Below, piece after piece: positions 360 through 15,523 of a stretch of 43,621 nucleotides of DNA; within the stretch, counting starts at the first letter, position 1, and each line of letters begins with the position of its first letter. The notes below the pieces were generated by a model. The model saw only the letters and a program-made list of their open reading frames with translations, was not told where the DNA came from and did not search any database. Made by a program: the position numbers and the translations under genes. Source of the stretch: a virus; IMG/VR virus record IMGVR_UViG_3300037598_000353, positions 1 to 43,621 of that record. The stretch is one strand, 5' to 3'.

Positions 360-661
360 TAGGGTGGAGTAAAGCATGGCGGGGGGCGATTCGACCGGGA
401 AAAAACGGCTCCCCGGTCTTCCAAAACAGCATGGTTAGCCAGGCAAATGGCCTTTCCAGACCACCCAATCAGCTTTTTCTAGACATAAGAGTAATAGTCT
501 GAAGTTTGGTGGGAGACCAGGGAGAAAGACATACAAACGCTAACAGCAAAAAGCGCTTAGTCCCGAATTTACAGTTTATTCCCCCCCCTCTCCCGTCCAG
601 TCCCAAATCGCTCATATGCTGCTATTGCTCATACGATTACGATAGCACAGACCTGCAAACA
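360..661. other. gene-free stretch
   Basis: About 300 bases with no ribosome site followed by a credible reading frame. It contains one GC hairpin (GACCGGG at 397-403 pairs with CCCCGGTC near 411-418 only in part) and runs of C and A. I see no tRNA, attachment site or promoter that I can defend here. Confidence 0.4.
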
Positions 662-694
662 AAAAAGCCAGGCTCCACTTGAGCCTGGCTTTTT
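662..694 (-). terminator. intrinsic terminator for the GHKL gene
   Basis: A perfect inverted repeat GCCAGGCTC / GAGCCTGGC with a five-base loop (676-680) is flanked by A-run and T-run, so it can work in both directions. On the minus strand the stem is followed by TTTTTTG. It lies 14 bases after the stop codon of the leftward gene at 708. Confidence 0.9.
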
Positions 695-707
695 CCTTGA
701 CCTGCTG

Positions 708-2129
708 CTATCGTTTTTTCTGCATCATATCTATTTGAGCAATAATGCTCAGCGCTTGTTTTGCAATCCGGGACATAATCTCCATCCGCCGGGACTCATA
801 TTCCTGCCCATGCCCCGGATTGGTAACGTGAGACAGTTCATGGACAACCGTCTCAAGCACCAGGAAAGCATGTTTGTTCAGCACCCGGTTCGGTTTTACT
901 GCTATGATAATATCGGAGATACTTCCGATGTTCAAACAGATAGCATTGGCATCTTCTGTGTCCAGTAATAGTCCGGCCGTTATGTTGTAGTGCTTTATCT
1001 CCGGGTCTAGCATTTTTACCATCTGCAAAGCATAGCTAATTATCCCTAATGGTTTGCGATACTTCTTTTTTAATCTCCTTTCATGGAATAGCCTAGATTT
1101 TATTGACCGGTTGTGGACTATCGCGTAATCTCCGATATTATCGTTTGTCCGCATATAGTGCAATATCTTAACAGTATCATCTTCTCCTATGGCTGTTTCA
1201 GTCCAATCGCGATTAAAATTGTGTGAACAGACCGTTATGTGTGTTATCTTTGCTTTTTTGTCCAACCTACCTTTCTTTATCTGTTCTAATTCATACTTAT
1301 CTATCACGTCACAAACTTCTCTTTTGACGTGATACAGAAGATAATCGCGATTCTCTGAAAGTATTTTATTGCTTACCTGCTCAAGCTCAAGGTAATAGCA
1401 GTATTCGGATTGAACATGGTCTATTGCTGTGAATAGACCTTTTACGCGTATGTACAATTCGCCGGGCCATTCGTTTTGTCTGAATTTCTTTCCCCGGTAG
1501 ACATACAGCCTACCGTCACCTGCAATGCTATTTGATAGCAGTTTGAGATTCGATAGTGTTCTACCTTGTTTGACTGTCTCCCCATTCAATTTTATCTGCA
1601 TTGGGATATTACTCAAGGACATTATGTGAGCAAGGTGTTTGCCTACCTGTATACTGTTGAACAGCCGTGCACTCTCCTGCTTTTCGGATTCGTCATATAT
1701 AACGGTAAAACCGTTTTTTCTCCCCGGCTGTTCAATACTTACAATATCTGCTGCACCTTGCCCGGTGCAGACAAAATCCAAACTCCGAATCTCCCAATGC
1801 GCCATTGCGAATGTGAGTTCTTTTGCTGCACCAAAGCAGCCGAGGGAGCCGGGTGGTTTTTTGGAGCCGCCCAAGGCAAGATAATACTTTCTAAACTCTT
1901 CCAAACTCATACCACAGCCGTTGTCGCTGGCAATCAACTTGTGTGTGTCTGGCGTTGAAAAGTGCAATGTTGTTGCGCCAGCATCCATAGAGTTTTGTAT
2001 CAATTCCCGGATTAAGGCTCTACAGACATTGTTGTACTGTTGCCTTACACGTTTTGCGAAGTGGAAAGTTGGCAATACGATACTTTCCTTGTGCACTGTG
2101 TTGTGCTCATTCGTCTTTGTGCTGTTCAT
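708..2129 (-). CDS. GHKL ATPase fused to an HExxH metalloprotease domain
   Basis: A 473-residue protein. The start at 2129 (MNSTKT) is chosen because AAAGGAGA lies just upstream; an upstream in-frame start at 2171 has none. The N-terminal 150 residues carry the GHKL (Hsp90, MutL, histidine kinase) ATP site: ELIQNSMDAGA (N box), DNGCGM (G1) and LGCFGAAKE (G2). The last 70 residues carry VVHELSHVTNPGHGQEYE, an HELSH zinc motif followed by GHG and a Glu, as in zincin peptidases. The central 250 residues are unassigned. The gene follows the helix-turn-helix gene in one leftward operon and ends in its own terminator. It is clearly more AT-rich than the late genes, which suggests separate origin. 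The family pairing is seen directly; the role (anti-defence, chaperone-protease, host takeover) is unknown. Confidence 0.8.
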   Translation of the reverse strand: MNSTKTNEHNTVHKESIVLPTFHFAKRVRQQYNNVCRALIRELIQNSMDAGATTLHFSTPDTHKLIASDNGCGMSLEEFRKYYLALGGSKKPPGSLGCFGAAKELTFAMAHWEIRSLDFVCTGQGAADIVSIEQPGRKNGFTVIYDESEKQESARLFNSIQVGKHLAHIMSLSNIPMQIKLNGETVKQGRTLSNLKLLSNSIAGDGRLYVYRGKKFRQNEWPGELYIRVKGLFTAIDHVQSEYCYYLELEQVSNKILSENRDYLLYHVKREVCDVIDKYELEQIKKGRLDKKAKITHITVCSHNFNRDWTETAIGEDDTVKILHYMRTNDNIGDYAIVHNRSIKSRLFHERRLKKKYRKPLGIISYALQMVKMLDPEIKHYNITAGLLLDTEDANAICLNIGSISDIIIAVKPNRVLNKHAFLVLETVVHELSHVTNPGHGQEYESRRMEIMSRIAKQALSIIAQIDMMQKKR

Positions 2130-2176: not shown

Positions 2177-2198
2177 AAAAGTGTCATGTTGCACTTTT
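2177..2198. promoter_or_regulatory. dispersed palindrome, site A
   Basis: AAAAGTGTCATGTTGCACTTTT matches the AAAGTGYCA-NN-TGRCACTTT pattern seen at four other junctions, with one mismatch in the right half. It overlaps the end of the helix-turn-helix gene and lies about 50 bases before the GHKL start. Confidence 0.5.
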
Positions 2199-2723
2199 TA
2201 CCATGCTGTTTATGCGCTTTTGCAGTTCGGAGATTTGTTTATTCAAGCCAATCAATTGCTGTTCCAATTGCGTCTTTTGAATTATCAAATCGCTGTGCTT
2301 CTCCATAAGTGCTTTCAAATCATTACTTTCGCTGCTATTATTCAGCATAGCTTGAGCAAACTCTTTGAGTTCCACAAGAGTATGTTCCTGTGCAAACTCA
2401 AACAAATCATAGAGTTGACTCATACTTAGCGTATGCTGTTTATGTAGTTGCATGATGTATGCTGTTTTTGCTATGCCAATACTGTCAATCCAATCCCAGG
2501 ATATGTCTAGCAAGACAGCAAAGTTGTAGATGTTCGCTAATCTGTAGAGCTGCTGACGTGACATTCCACATTGTTGAGCAAAACGCTCTACAGTGCAATA
2601 TGCCCTCTCGCTCGCTATCCCTATCAGCGACCGGGCGGCTGTGGCCCGTTCGCTGATAGGTCTGTTTTTATCAGAAGCTATAGCGATAATCTCTATAGTT
2701 GATAATGTCTTATCGCTGTTCAT
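2184..2723 (-). CDS. helix-turn-helix protein with C-terminal coiled coil
   Basis: A 179-residue protein starting at 2723 (MNSDKT), chosen for the AAAAGGAGAG site just upstream; an upstream in-frame start at 2753 lies beyond it. Residues about 45-70 (TVERFAQQCGMSRQQLYRLA) form a clear helix-turn-helix. The last 45 residues are a Leu/Gln/Lys coiled coil (LEQQLIGLNKQISELQKRI), which would give a dimer. It is the first gene of the leftward operon, with the promoter at 2768-2797 and a dyad at 2747-2761 directly upstream. That position suggests a regulator of the divergent control region, possibly autoregulated. I cannot tell a repressor from a partition or replication accessory protein. Confidence 0.6.
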   Translation of the reverse strand: MNSDKTLSTIEIIAIASDKNRPISERATAARSLIGIASERAYCTVERFAQQCGMSRQQLYRLANIYNFAVLLDISWDWIDSIGIAKTAYIMQLHKQHTLSMSQLYDLFEFAQEHTLVELKEFAQAMLNNSSESNDLKALMEKHSDLIIQKTQLEQQLIGLNKQISELQKRINSMVKSAT

Positions 2724-2746
2724 TCTACTCTCCTTTTCTGGCTTTT

Positions 2747-2761
2747 GTCTCATAATGTTAC
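2747..2761. promoter_or_regulatory. CATAATG dyad, copy 1
   Basis: GTCTCATAATGTTAC fits GTNNCATRATGNNAC. It begins right after the -10 box of the leftward promoter, where the transcript would start, so a bound protein would block that promoter. It is the only copy that is not next to a rightward early gene. Confidence 0.55.
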
Positions 2762-2767
2762 ATATAT

Positions 2768-2797
2768 ATTATACCAAATTTGACCTACAAATGTCAA
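2768..2797 (-). promoter_or_regulatory. leftward sigma70-type promoter
   Basis: On the minus strand TTGACA (2797-2792), an 18-base spacer and TATAAT (2773-2768). It faces the helix-turn-helix and GHKL genes. Upstream TTGACAAAT and TGACAAAT half-sites repeat the -35 sequence and may be operators. Confidence 0.85.
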
Positions 2798-2951
2798 CCC
2801 TTTGCACAATATTTGTCAAAATTTGTCAGTGTTGCACAGTTCAGCGGCCCGGAGTGCGCGATGTTGCGCGATTTACGTCGAAAACCATGCGCGTTTCTGC
2901 TCATTTTTGTCCAAATAATGCAGTGAGAATTTGACATTGATTTGACGCAAA

Positions 2952-2983
2952 TTTGAGCACAGTTTGAGCACAGTTTGAGCATA
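2952..2983 (+). repeat. three 11-bp direct repeats
   Basis: TTTGAGCACAG, TTTGAGCACAG and TTTGAGCATAA follow one another with no gap. An 11-base period puts every copy on the same face of the helix. Related copies occur at about 2988 (AAGAGCACAA), 3009 (TTGAGCATG) and 3031 (AAGAGCATG). Confidence 0.85.
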
Positions 2984-3057
2984 AGCTAAGAGCACAATAC
3001 AGCATGTTTTGAGCATGATAGCAGCACCAAAAGAGCATGTTGATTGTGCCGGCCGGG

Positions 3058-3074
3058 TGTAACATGATGTTACA
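3058..3074. promoter_or_regulatory. CATAATG-type dyad, copy 2 (perfect palindrome)
   Basis: TGTAACATGATGTTACA is a perfect 17-bp palindrome around base 3066. It is the most symmetrical copy of the GTNNCATRATGNNAC element and probably the best guide to the consensus binding site. Confidence 0.6.
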
Positions 3075-3128
3075 GTGCAAACCGAACAGCGCCCGCCGGC
3101 CCGCCTGGCCTTCCCTCCTCCGCGGCCC

Positions 3129-3145
3129 CGGCGGCCTGGCCGCCG
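3129..3145. repeat. GC-rich palindrome followed by GACTAGA
   Basis: CGGCGGCCTGGCCGCCG is self-complementary and is followed by GACTAGA, the same join seen at the 3' arm of the hairpins at 5218-5249, 7771-7802 and 8921-8958. It therefore belongs to the same module family. Confidence 0.6.
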
Positions 3146-3156
3146 GACTAGACGAC

Positions 3157-3204
3157 AAACTAGAGTGCAAACTAGAGTGCAAACTAGAGACCAAACTAGA
3201 GCAC
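3157..3204 (+). repeat. four 12-bp AAACTAGAG iterons
   Basis: AAACTAGAGTGC twice, AAACTAGAGACC and AAACTAGAGCAC are contiguous. An inverted relative (GCGCTCTAGACTAGCGC) follows at 3210-3226. The core ACTAGA also ends most early intergenic modules. Confidence 0.85.
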
Positions 3205-3416
3205 AACTTGCGCTCTAGACTAGCGCTCAAATGAATGTCAAATCGCAGCGAAACTAGAGCGAAAACTAGAGACCGAAAACGCGCAAGAGTGCGCAAAAAA
3301 CCGCGCAATATCACGCACCCCCGAAGCCTAAACGCGCAAAACTAGACAGCGAAAACTCGCCAAACGCGCAAAAGTGCGCAGCAATGACAAATTTTGTGCA
3401 AAACACAAATTGGGTC

Positions 3417-3445
3417 TTGACATTTGTCAATTTTTTTGATATAAT
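3417..3445 (+). promoter_or_regulatory. rightward early promoter with operator-like dyad
   Basis: TTGACA (3417-3422), a 17-base spacer and TATAAT (3440-3445) match the sigma70 consensus exactly. TTGACATTTGTCAA (3417-3430) is a perfect 14-bp palindrome over the -35 box and is a likely repressor site. The promoter serves the early genes from 3474. Confidence 0.92.
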
Positions 3446-3473
3446 GGTATAAAATCATATAAGGAGGGGAAAG

Positions 3474-3602
3474 GTGAACAGCAACAAAAAGAAGTCAAAT
3501 TATTACCCGCTCCGCCGGCTGGAGGCCCGCCTAGCGCGGAGGGAGGCCCGCCGGCGCAACCGCCGGGGGGATGCCCCCCGGAGGGAAAAGGAATGGAGGT
3601 GA
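3474..3602 (+). CDS. small arginine-rich protein
   Basis: A 42-residue reading frame that starts with GTG seven bases after AAGGAGG, directly behind the early promoter. About 18 residues are Arg, mostly in the second half (RLARREARRRNRRGD), so the product would be strongly basic and could bind nucleic acid. The coding bases include the GC-rich inverted sequence CGCCGGGGGG...CCCCCCGG type near 3560-3583, so the stretch may instead be a non-coding leader with structure. Its stop codon lies inside the ribosome site of the next gene. Confidence 0.45.
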   Translation: MNSNKKKSNYYPLRRLEARLARREARRRNRRGDAPRREKEWR

Positions 3603-14377: not shown

Positions 14378-15523
14378 TTGAAAATACTCTATCAGGCCAA
14401 CGCCCCGTGGCTCCCCACGGGGTATGGCATACAGTCGAATTACCTGGTGCCCGGCTGGCAAAGGCTTGGGCACCAGGTGACTATATTCGCCTTCGATAGC
14501 CTCTTCCTGGGTAGCCTGAATCTCGGAAACGTCCAGATACTCCCGACGAGGGGCTTCGGCGACCGCTTCGGGAACGAGATAATTGACGAGTATGTCAGAC
14601 TCCTCAAGCCGGATGTGGTCATCACCCTCATGGACGTTTGGGTGCTCAAGGATTACGGAAAGCGGGGATTCCGCTGGGTGCCCTGGCTTCCGGTAGACCA
14701 CGACCCGGTGCCGAAGATAGTGGCCGAGGCCCTGGAAGGGGCCTATCTCCCGATAGCCTACTCCCGCTTCGGGCAGAGGAAGCTCCGGGAGGTAGGGATA
14801 GAGGCCGAGTATATCCCCCACGGCGTGGACACCAAGGTCTATAGACCCTTGCCCAGGGAGGAGGCGCGGGCGTCCCTGGGCCTGCCGCAGGATGCTTTCA
14901 TCGTCGGGATGGTGGCCGCCAACGTGGACTATCCCTCCCGAAAGGCGTTTCCTCAAAACATGGAGGCATTCGCCCGCTTCTACAGGAGACATCCCGAAGC
15001 CAGGCTCTACCTCCACTGCGACCTGGTGCCGCCCAGGGGCAGAACCGCCTACAATCTCATCGAGCTGGCGGAATTCCTCGGAATCAGGGAGGCGCTCCTC
15101 GCCTCAGACCCGACGCTGAGACTCCTGGGCTTCCCGCCGGAGCAGATGGCCCTCCTCTACAACAGCTTCGACGTGCTCCTGGCGGCCTCGATGGGAGAGG
15201 GGTTTGGGTTGCCTTTGATAGAGGCCCAAGCCTGCGGCACCCCCGTCATCGCCACCGATTTCACCTCGATGACGGAGCTGGTGAAGGCCGGGTGGCTTGT
15301 CAGGCCAAAGTGCAAATTCCTCACCAACCAAATCAGCTATCAAGCCATCCCGGACATAGATTCCATCGAGGAATGCCTGGAGGCCGCCTATCGAGCCTCC
15401 GCCAGCGAGGAGGCGAGGGAGAGGCTGCGCCAGAAGGGAAGGCTTTTTGCTCTCGTGTTCGACTGGGAGCTTCTCATAGAGACGAAGTGGCGCCGCCTGT
15501 TAGAGAACATGGAGAGAATATAG
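14378..15523 (+). CDS. glycosyltransferase, GT-B fold, family 4 type
   Basis: A 381-residue protein beginning MKILYQANAPWLPTGYG. It would move a sugar from a nucleotide sugar to an acceptor. The C-terminal Rossmann domain has the family-4 signature GEGFGLPLIEAQACGTPVI (Glu-x7-Glu) at about 275-293 and the IPHGVDTKVYRP linker at about 147. Length is usual for the family. The start is TTG at 14378 with no good ribosome site, so expression may depend on coupling to the preceding gene. A phage copy could modify virion proteins, host envelope or DNA; proximity to fibre genes favours the virion, by inference. Confidence 0.9.
   Translation: MKILYQANAPWLPTGYGIQSNYLVPGWQRLGHQVTIFAFDSLFLGSLNLGNVQILPTRGFGDRFGNEIIDEYVRLLKPDVVITLMDVWVLKDYGKRGFRWVPWLPVDHDPVPKIVAEALEGAYLPIAYSRFGQRKLREVGIEAEYIPHGVDTKVYRPLPREEARASLGLPQDAFIVGMVAANVDYPSRKAFPQNMEAFARFYRRHPEARLYLHCDLVPPRGRTAYNLIELAEFLGIREALLASDPTLRLLGFPPEQMALLYNSFDVLLAASMGEGFGLPLIEAQACGTPVIATDFTSMTELVKAGWLVRPKCKFLTNQISYQAIPDIDSIEECLEAAYRASASEEARERLRQKGRLFALVFDWELLIETKWRRLLENMERI

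Follow-up and report, generated by a model that had tools for sequence, protein, structure and literature searches.

Zincin domains have been described in the polyvalent proteins of phages, in an account that mentions neither GHKL, HSP90 or WLM domains nor a pairing of GHKL with a zincin (PMC5512222). A survey of jumbo phages (PMC7824862) treats rIIA orthologs as counter-defence systems that are poorly understood and vary in their C-terminal domains; the passages found in it do not describe a GHKL-zincin fusion. Here we analyse such a fusion, encoded on the minus strand at 708..2129 of the IMG/VR virus record IMGVR_UViG_3300037598_000353; the window is the whole stretch analysed, 43,621 nucleotides of this 43.6 kb record. 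The 473-residue protein joins a GHKL ATPase to a C-terminal domain predicted to be a zincin. With moderate confidence we read it as a phage-encoded, ATP-gated zinc metalloprotease, made early, in which a clamp is coupled to a WLM/Wss1-like zincin and acts on host, defence or DNA-bound proteins.

The GHKL and zincin halves

The reading frame ends with a stop codon at 708-710. We prefer the ATG at 2129 as its start because a ribosome-binding site, AAGGAG, lies at 2139-2144; the alternative start of a longer open reading frame, at 2171, is less likely given this site and was rejected. The three GHKL boxes that the original prediction had placed at the N-terminus are complete and include the catalytic Glu and Asp of the superfamily. 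These are, all on the minus strand, the N box ELIQNSMDAGA (residues 42-52, 1974..2006, with E42, Q45, N46, D49 and A50 invariant), the G1 box DNGCGM (residues 69-74, 1908..1925) and the G2 box GCFG (residues 97-100, 1830..1841; GGFG in most relatives). The Pfam model HATPase_c_3 matches with an E-value of 5.5e-7, exceeding its gathering score; PHROGs, PADLOC and NCBIfam gave weak matches, to GHKL only.

Profile-profile comparison of the GHKL part gave rIIA at 1.1e-21 (174 columns) and HtpG at 8.9e-19. The motif NRD of the transducer (S5-like) domain (1344..1352, minus strand) contains the invariant R261, which by motif occupies the position of the arginine in NVSRE of HtpG and PSRE of rIIA; the equivalent arginine of Hsp90 contacts ATP. 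A basic residue of S5 domains, as at R261, has been described (PMC2292703).

The C-terminal domain (residues 331-473, 711..1139, minus strand) yielded no convincing match in the Pfam scan, but its predicted structure is informative. A model built from 37 sequences was confident, with a predicted local distance difference test score (pLDDT) of 93.6 and a predicted template-modelling score of 0.88. Among solved structures its top matches were selecase and Wss1, followed lower down by leishmanolysin and the DNA-protein crosslink (DPC) repair protease entry 6mdw (SPRTN-type); viral fold matches included one WLM protein and numerous SprT-like ones. The best profile match in the PDB was yeast Wss1 (E 2.7e-5), and among 38 members of the family Pfam found WLM in 11, at 3.8e-4 or weaker, and YgjP-like in six. 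On these fold, profile and Pfam matches we place the domain among the zincins, in the WLM/SprT neighbourhood. The window protein itself had no match to Pfam WLM and so does not reach the gathering threshold of that family; 'Wss1-like' here denotes resemblance, not family membership.

The motif HELSH stands at residues 430-434 (828..842, minus strand), as predicted, and the model puts it in a zincin fold rather than in the non-zincin fold that would have undone the prediction. Downstream lies HGQEY (798..812, minus strand), running from H440 to Y444. The original prediction had pointed to a downstream GHG and a Glu; the GHG is there and its His440 is conserved, whereas the Glu is probably not the third metal ligand. 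His440 is the likely third metal ligand, since it is conserved and stands at the HExxH-x5-H spacing seen in Wss1. The domain thus has an HExxH in a predicted zincin fold together with a likely third ligand.

The affinity to Wss1 raises the possibility of DNA-protein crosslink repair or replication clearing, in which the protein, a one-chain counterpart of Cdc48-Wss1 or p97-SPRTN, would close on phage DNA and cut away proteins bound to it covalently or tightly, clearing the path of replication. Wss1 as the best profile match, with Wss1 and 6mdw among the best fold matches, is consistent with such a role, and GHKL ATPases such as MutL act on DNA. At one relative's locus (L014, 4834-9751) the fusion gene lies between recA/UvsX-like and 5'-3' exonuclease genes, with a gene for a protein like single-stranded DNA-binding protein nearby. 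DNA-repair neighbours occur at few loci only, however, the sporadic distribution and fast divergence of the family suit conflict genes better, and no DNA-binding element was identified in the fusion protein; we regard this role as possible but doubtful.

Relatives, conservation and distribution

Searched as a single sequence, the window protein matched one identical copy, on viral contig L001, and gave weak plasmid matches; it had no match in INPHARED and none in genome contigs. Alignment searches then gave loci L006-L014 and finally 38 viral loci. Relatives were fetched through GHKL-motif patterns as well as these alignment searches, a selection that favours close GHKL relatives; most confirming matches of new loci spanned the GHKL part alone, and linker alignments among members are unreliable.

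In every one of the 31 new viral loci retrieved via GHKL patterns, the same reading frame continues downstream to an HExxH. Although the 38 relatives are only 14-34% identical to the window protein, 13 residues are invariant across 38 sequences: E42, Q45, N46, D49, A50, D69, G71, G97, G100, R261, H430, E431 and H434. The last three do not vary in any of 39 sequences, of which 34 retain the third His and 38 retain F/Y444. No C-terminal HExxH was present in nine rIIA proteins (T4 and eight others) or in eleven HtpG-type control proteins. A chance motif is rejected by the 31/31 recurrence and the invariance of H430, E431 and H434, and the original prediction, which loss of the metal ligands in homologues would have undermined, survives this comparison. 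The same invariance, in sequences otherwise sharing little, argues against a dead or merely structural protease domain, with the protein working as an rIIA-like or Hsp90-like ATPase alone; we consider that extremely improbable.

The two halves appear to have travelled together. Their distances are correlated (Mantel r 0.79, reached in 0 of 5000 permutations), so the halves have co-diverged; the fusion is an old one, passed on as a unit. With the motif invariance, the zincin model and the profile matches, this supports the central claim of the original prediction, that a zinc metalloprotease is joined to a GHKL ATPase. Its occurrence in dozens of very different phages likewise speaks for an enzyme family of long standing in phages and against a motif that arose by chance.

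The fusion takes the form of stand-alone proteins, longer proteins and, in one group, parts of giant 'polyvalent' proteins. The tree pairs the window protein with L006 (support 100/100) and gathers the giant-protein copies to one side of a branch with support 86/94. Fourteen members (L036, L039, L040, L042-L048, L050-L052 and L011) are embedded in phage proteins of 1,590-3,445 residues, which would suit a zincin that serves as a self-processing module cutting its carrier polypeptide, as proposed for the zincins of polyvalent proteins (PMC5512222). That account does not mention GHKL, HSP90 or WLM domains, and, standing alone, the window protein and many of its relatives have nothing to release; we think self-processing very unlikely.

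INPHARED searches with P0003, L023 and L014 gave no match, whereas an rIIA control search matched 2,865 records, so the search itself works; no INPHARED record has a close match to the fusion. The giant-protein branch reaches rIIA proteins at 25-35% over the GHKL part. No model in four family libraries covers the fusion, and no PHROG spans it: matches to phrog_6203 and to rIIA families end within the GHKL part.

Outside viral contigs, two Pseudomonas megaplasmid matches encode proteins of ~560 residues that begin with the same GHKL part and carry HHELTH-x5-H close to the C-terminus. Behind the fusion gene on L003, L004 and L005 (Pseudomonas megaplasmids, ~1 Mb) stand similar uncharacterised genes, first of ~380-420 and then of ~294-313 residues. 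Among 399 Pseudomonadota genomes a full-length match was found in one, the query's own megaplasmid-bearing genome; the remaining matches listed covered GHKL positions alone, and the best eleven of these were HtpG-type. The fusion is biased towards mobile elements.

In the near-identical contigs L007, L008 and L009 the N box is interrupted, after DAGAS, by an in-frame TAG (fusion gene at 5986-7497 of L007), which reflects either stop-codon readthrough or recoding, or a shared lesion.

Operon, control region and neighbourhood

The fusion gene is the second of a two-gene operon. The upstream gene (2184..2723, minus strand) encodes a 179-residue helix-turn-helix (HTH) protein, with weak HTH matches only and, by eye, a probable coiled-coil tail. 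The operon promoter, TTGACA-18-TATAAT (2768..2797, minus strand), matches the sigma-70 consensus at 12/12 positions, and an intrinsic terminator hairpin (-30.4 kcal/mol, z -5.7) stands behind the fusion gene at 661..695 on the minus strand. The G+C content of the operon is 0.40-0.45, versus about 0.53-0.64 in the early region and 0.55-0.64 over most of it. The AT-rich composition, the promoter and the terminator are thus as originally described, but the further idea that the genes stand alone, as cargo or anti-defence genes often do, is only partly supported. The rightward early-operon promoter (3417..3445, plus strand), also perfect, is a mirror image of the operon promoter, and both carry TGACAAATTTTG and TTGACATTTGT in mirrored arrangement, which suggests one regulator; the fusion gene therefore looks wired into the early programme.

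Between these divergent promoters, the control region (2740-3480) is partly mirror-symmetric, with arms at 2801-2846 and 3367-3402 that are 80-94% complementary, and contains an array of 12-nt AAACTAGAGTGC repeats together with GTTTGAGCACA repeats. Both kinds of repeat are possibly operators or iterons.

This arrangement invites comparison with a repressor-cleaving switch resembling ImmA/ImmR, in which the HTH protein would repress the divergent promoters until, on a signal, it was destroyed by the fusion protease, much as ImmA cuts ImmR. In some Gram-positive temperate phages a repressor and an ImmA-like protease occupy such a position; here HTH and protease genes share one operon beside divergent mirrored promoters, and L007 likewise has an HTH gene upstream. 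We consider a switch unlikely, since a conserved partner gene sought across the member loci was not found (the HTH gene is conserved at L001 alone), the zincin is WLM-like, and the M78 (ImmA-type) peptidase is absent from the 22 families that match the 38 members. Lysogeny is moreover doubtful, because the record, which may be incomplete, yielded no tyrosine or serine integrase, no resolvase and no large recombinase.

Elsewhere the window carries genes for a tape-measure protein, a head protease, an exonuclease and a DnaD-like helicase loader; the last of these, with strong AGGAGG-type ribosome-binding sites, hints at a Gram-positive host. A rightward gene block includes a glycosyltransferase-like gene (14378-15523; phrog_2170, 1.3e-33), and a 1,386-residue protein encoded at 17107-21267 matches only phrog_12240 (unknown function), in four stretches.

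Proposed activity and comparison with known systems

For the ATP-gated protease that we favour, the following sequence of events can be proposed. The fusion protein would probably be made early, together with the HTH protein, from the promoter that shares control sequence with the early operon. Its GHKL ATPase and transducer, of the Hsp90/rIIA kind, would be expected to dimerise and to close on ATP; closing could trap a protein and then present it to the C-terminal zincin. The trapped protein would probably be bound to DNA or belong to a host defence or takeover target. The fusion protein would hydrolyse ATP and cut protein, and the presence of both domains on one chain makes the regulated cutting foreseen by the original prediction a reasonable expectation. 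Candidate targets are host or defence proteins, proteins crosslinked to DNA and the HTH partner. An anti-defence role is putative; of phage proteins, rIIA is the closest relative of the ATPase half.

Several points weigh against this proposal. The full-length model, built from seven sequences, matches Hsp90/TRAP1 in Foldseek (1.7e-12) but is weak (pLDDT 56), so it does not establish an Hsp90-like arrangement or dimerisation. E-values of the zincin fold matches are modest (0.008-0.08), though the best ones are all zincins, and a few members, L036, L043 and L044 among them, are without the third His at its usual place. Gene neighbourhoods vary and offer no constant partner, so that the target is not readable from context.

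More tentatively, these proteins may form a widespread phage enzyme class: on one chain, a clamp of the Hsp90/rIIA type would directly drive or gate a Wss1-type protease, which would strip phage DNA of host or defence proteins. Such an enzyme may be the one-polypeptide equivalent, in prokaryotes, of the Cdc48-Wss1 and p97-SPRTN machines. Each half is of a known superfamily, but no model of the four family libraries has the pairing as a unit. We did not find the pairing in the literature searched, which is no proof of its absence elsewhere; the family is apparently undescribed. The pairing points to a biochemical activity that could be tested in relatives of rIIA, a protein whose function has stayed unclear from the classical T4 studies onwards, and an ATP-gated protease made as one short polypeptide could serve as a tractable model for Wss1/SPRTN-type proteases.

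Five known systems invite comparison. The rIIA family (T4 rIIA and relatives) is likewise phage-encoded and shares a profile-related GHKL ATPase and the S/NRE/D transducer arginine motif, and some fusion members match rIIA PHROGs. The nine rIIA proteins compared differ in lacking the C-terminal HExxH, and several adjoin rIIB, which is not beside the window gene. We do not file the window protein as rIIA, since the likeness is confined to the GHKL part, without full-length similarity, and the partner is an HTH protein. Hsp90, HtpG and TRAP1 share the GHKL and transducer fold, but the window protein has a protease domain in place of the Hsp90 C-terminal dimerisation domain. Prokaryotic MORC/paraMORC proteins combine GHKL and S5 domains with C-terminal effectors in a conflict context, but those effectors are nucleases and no peptidase is mentioned (PMC2292703). 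One fusion group sits, like the zincins of phage polyvalent proteins, in giant multidomain proteins; the window protein, by contrast, is stand-alone, with two parts rather than many domains, and its zincin is WLM-like. With Wss1/WLM proteases (SPRTN, YgjP) the protein shares the HExxH-x5-H-xxx-F/Y motif and the predicted fold, but its zincin is fused to the GHKL ATPase, whereas Wss1 works with a separate Cdc48/p97.
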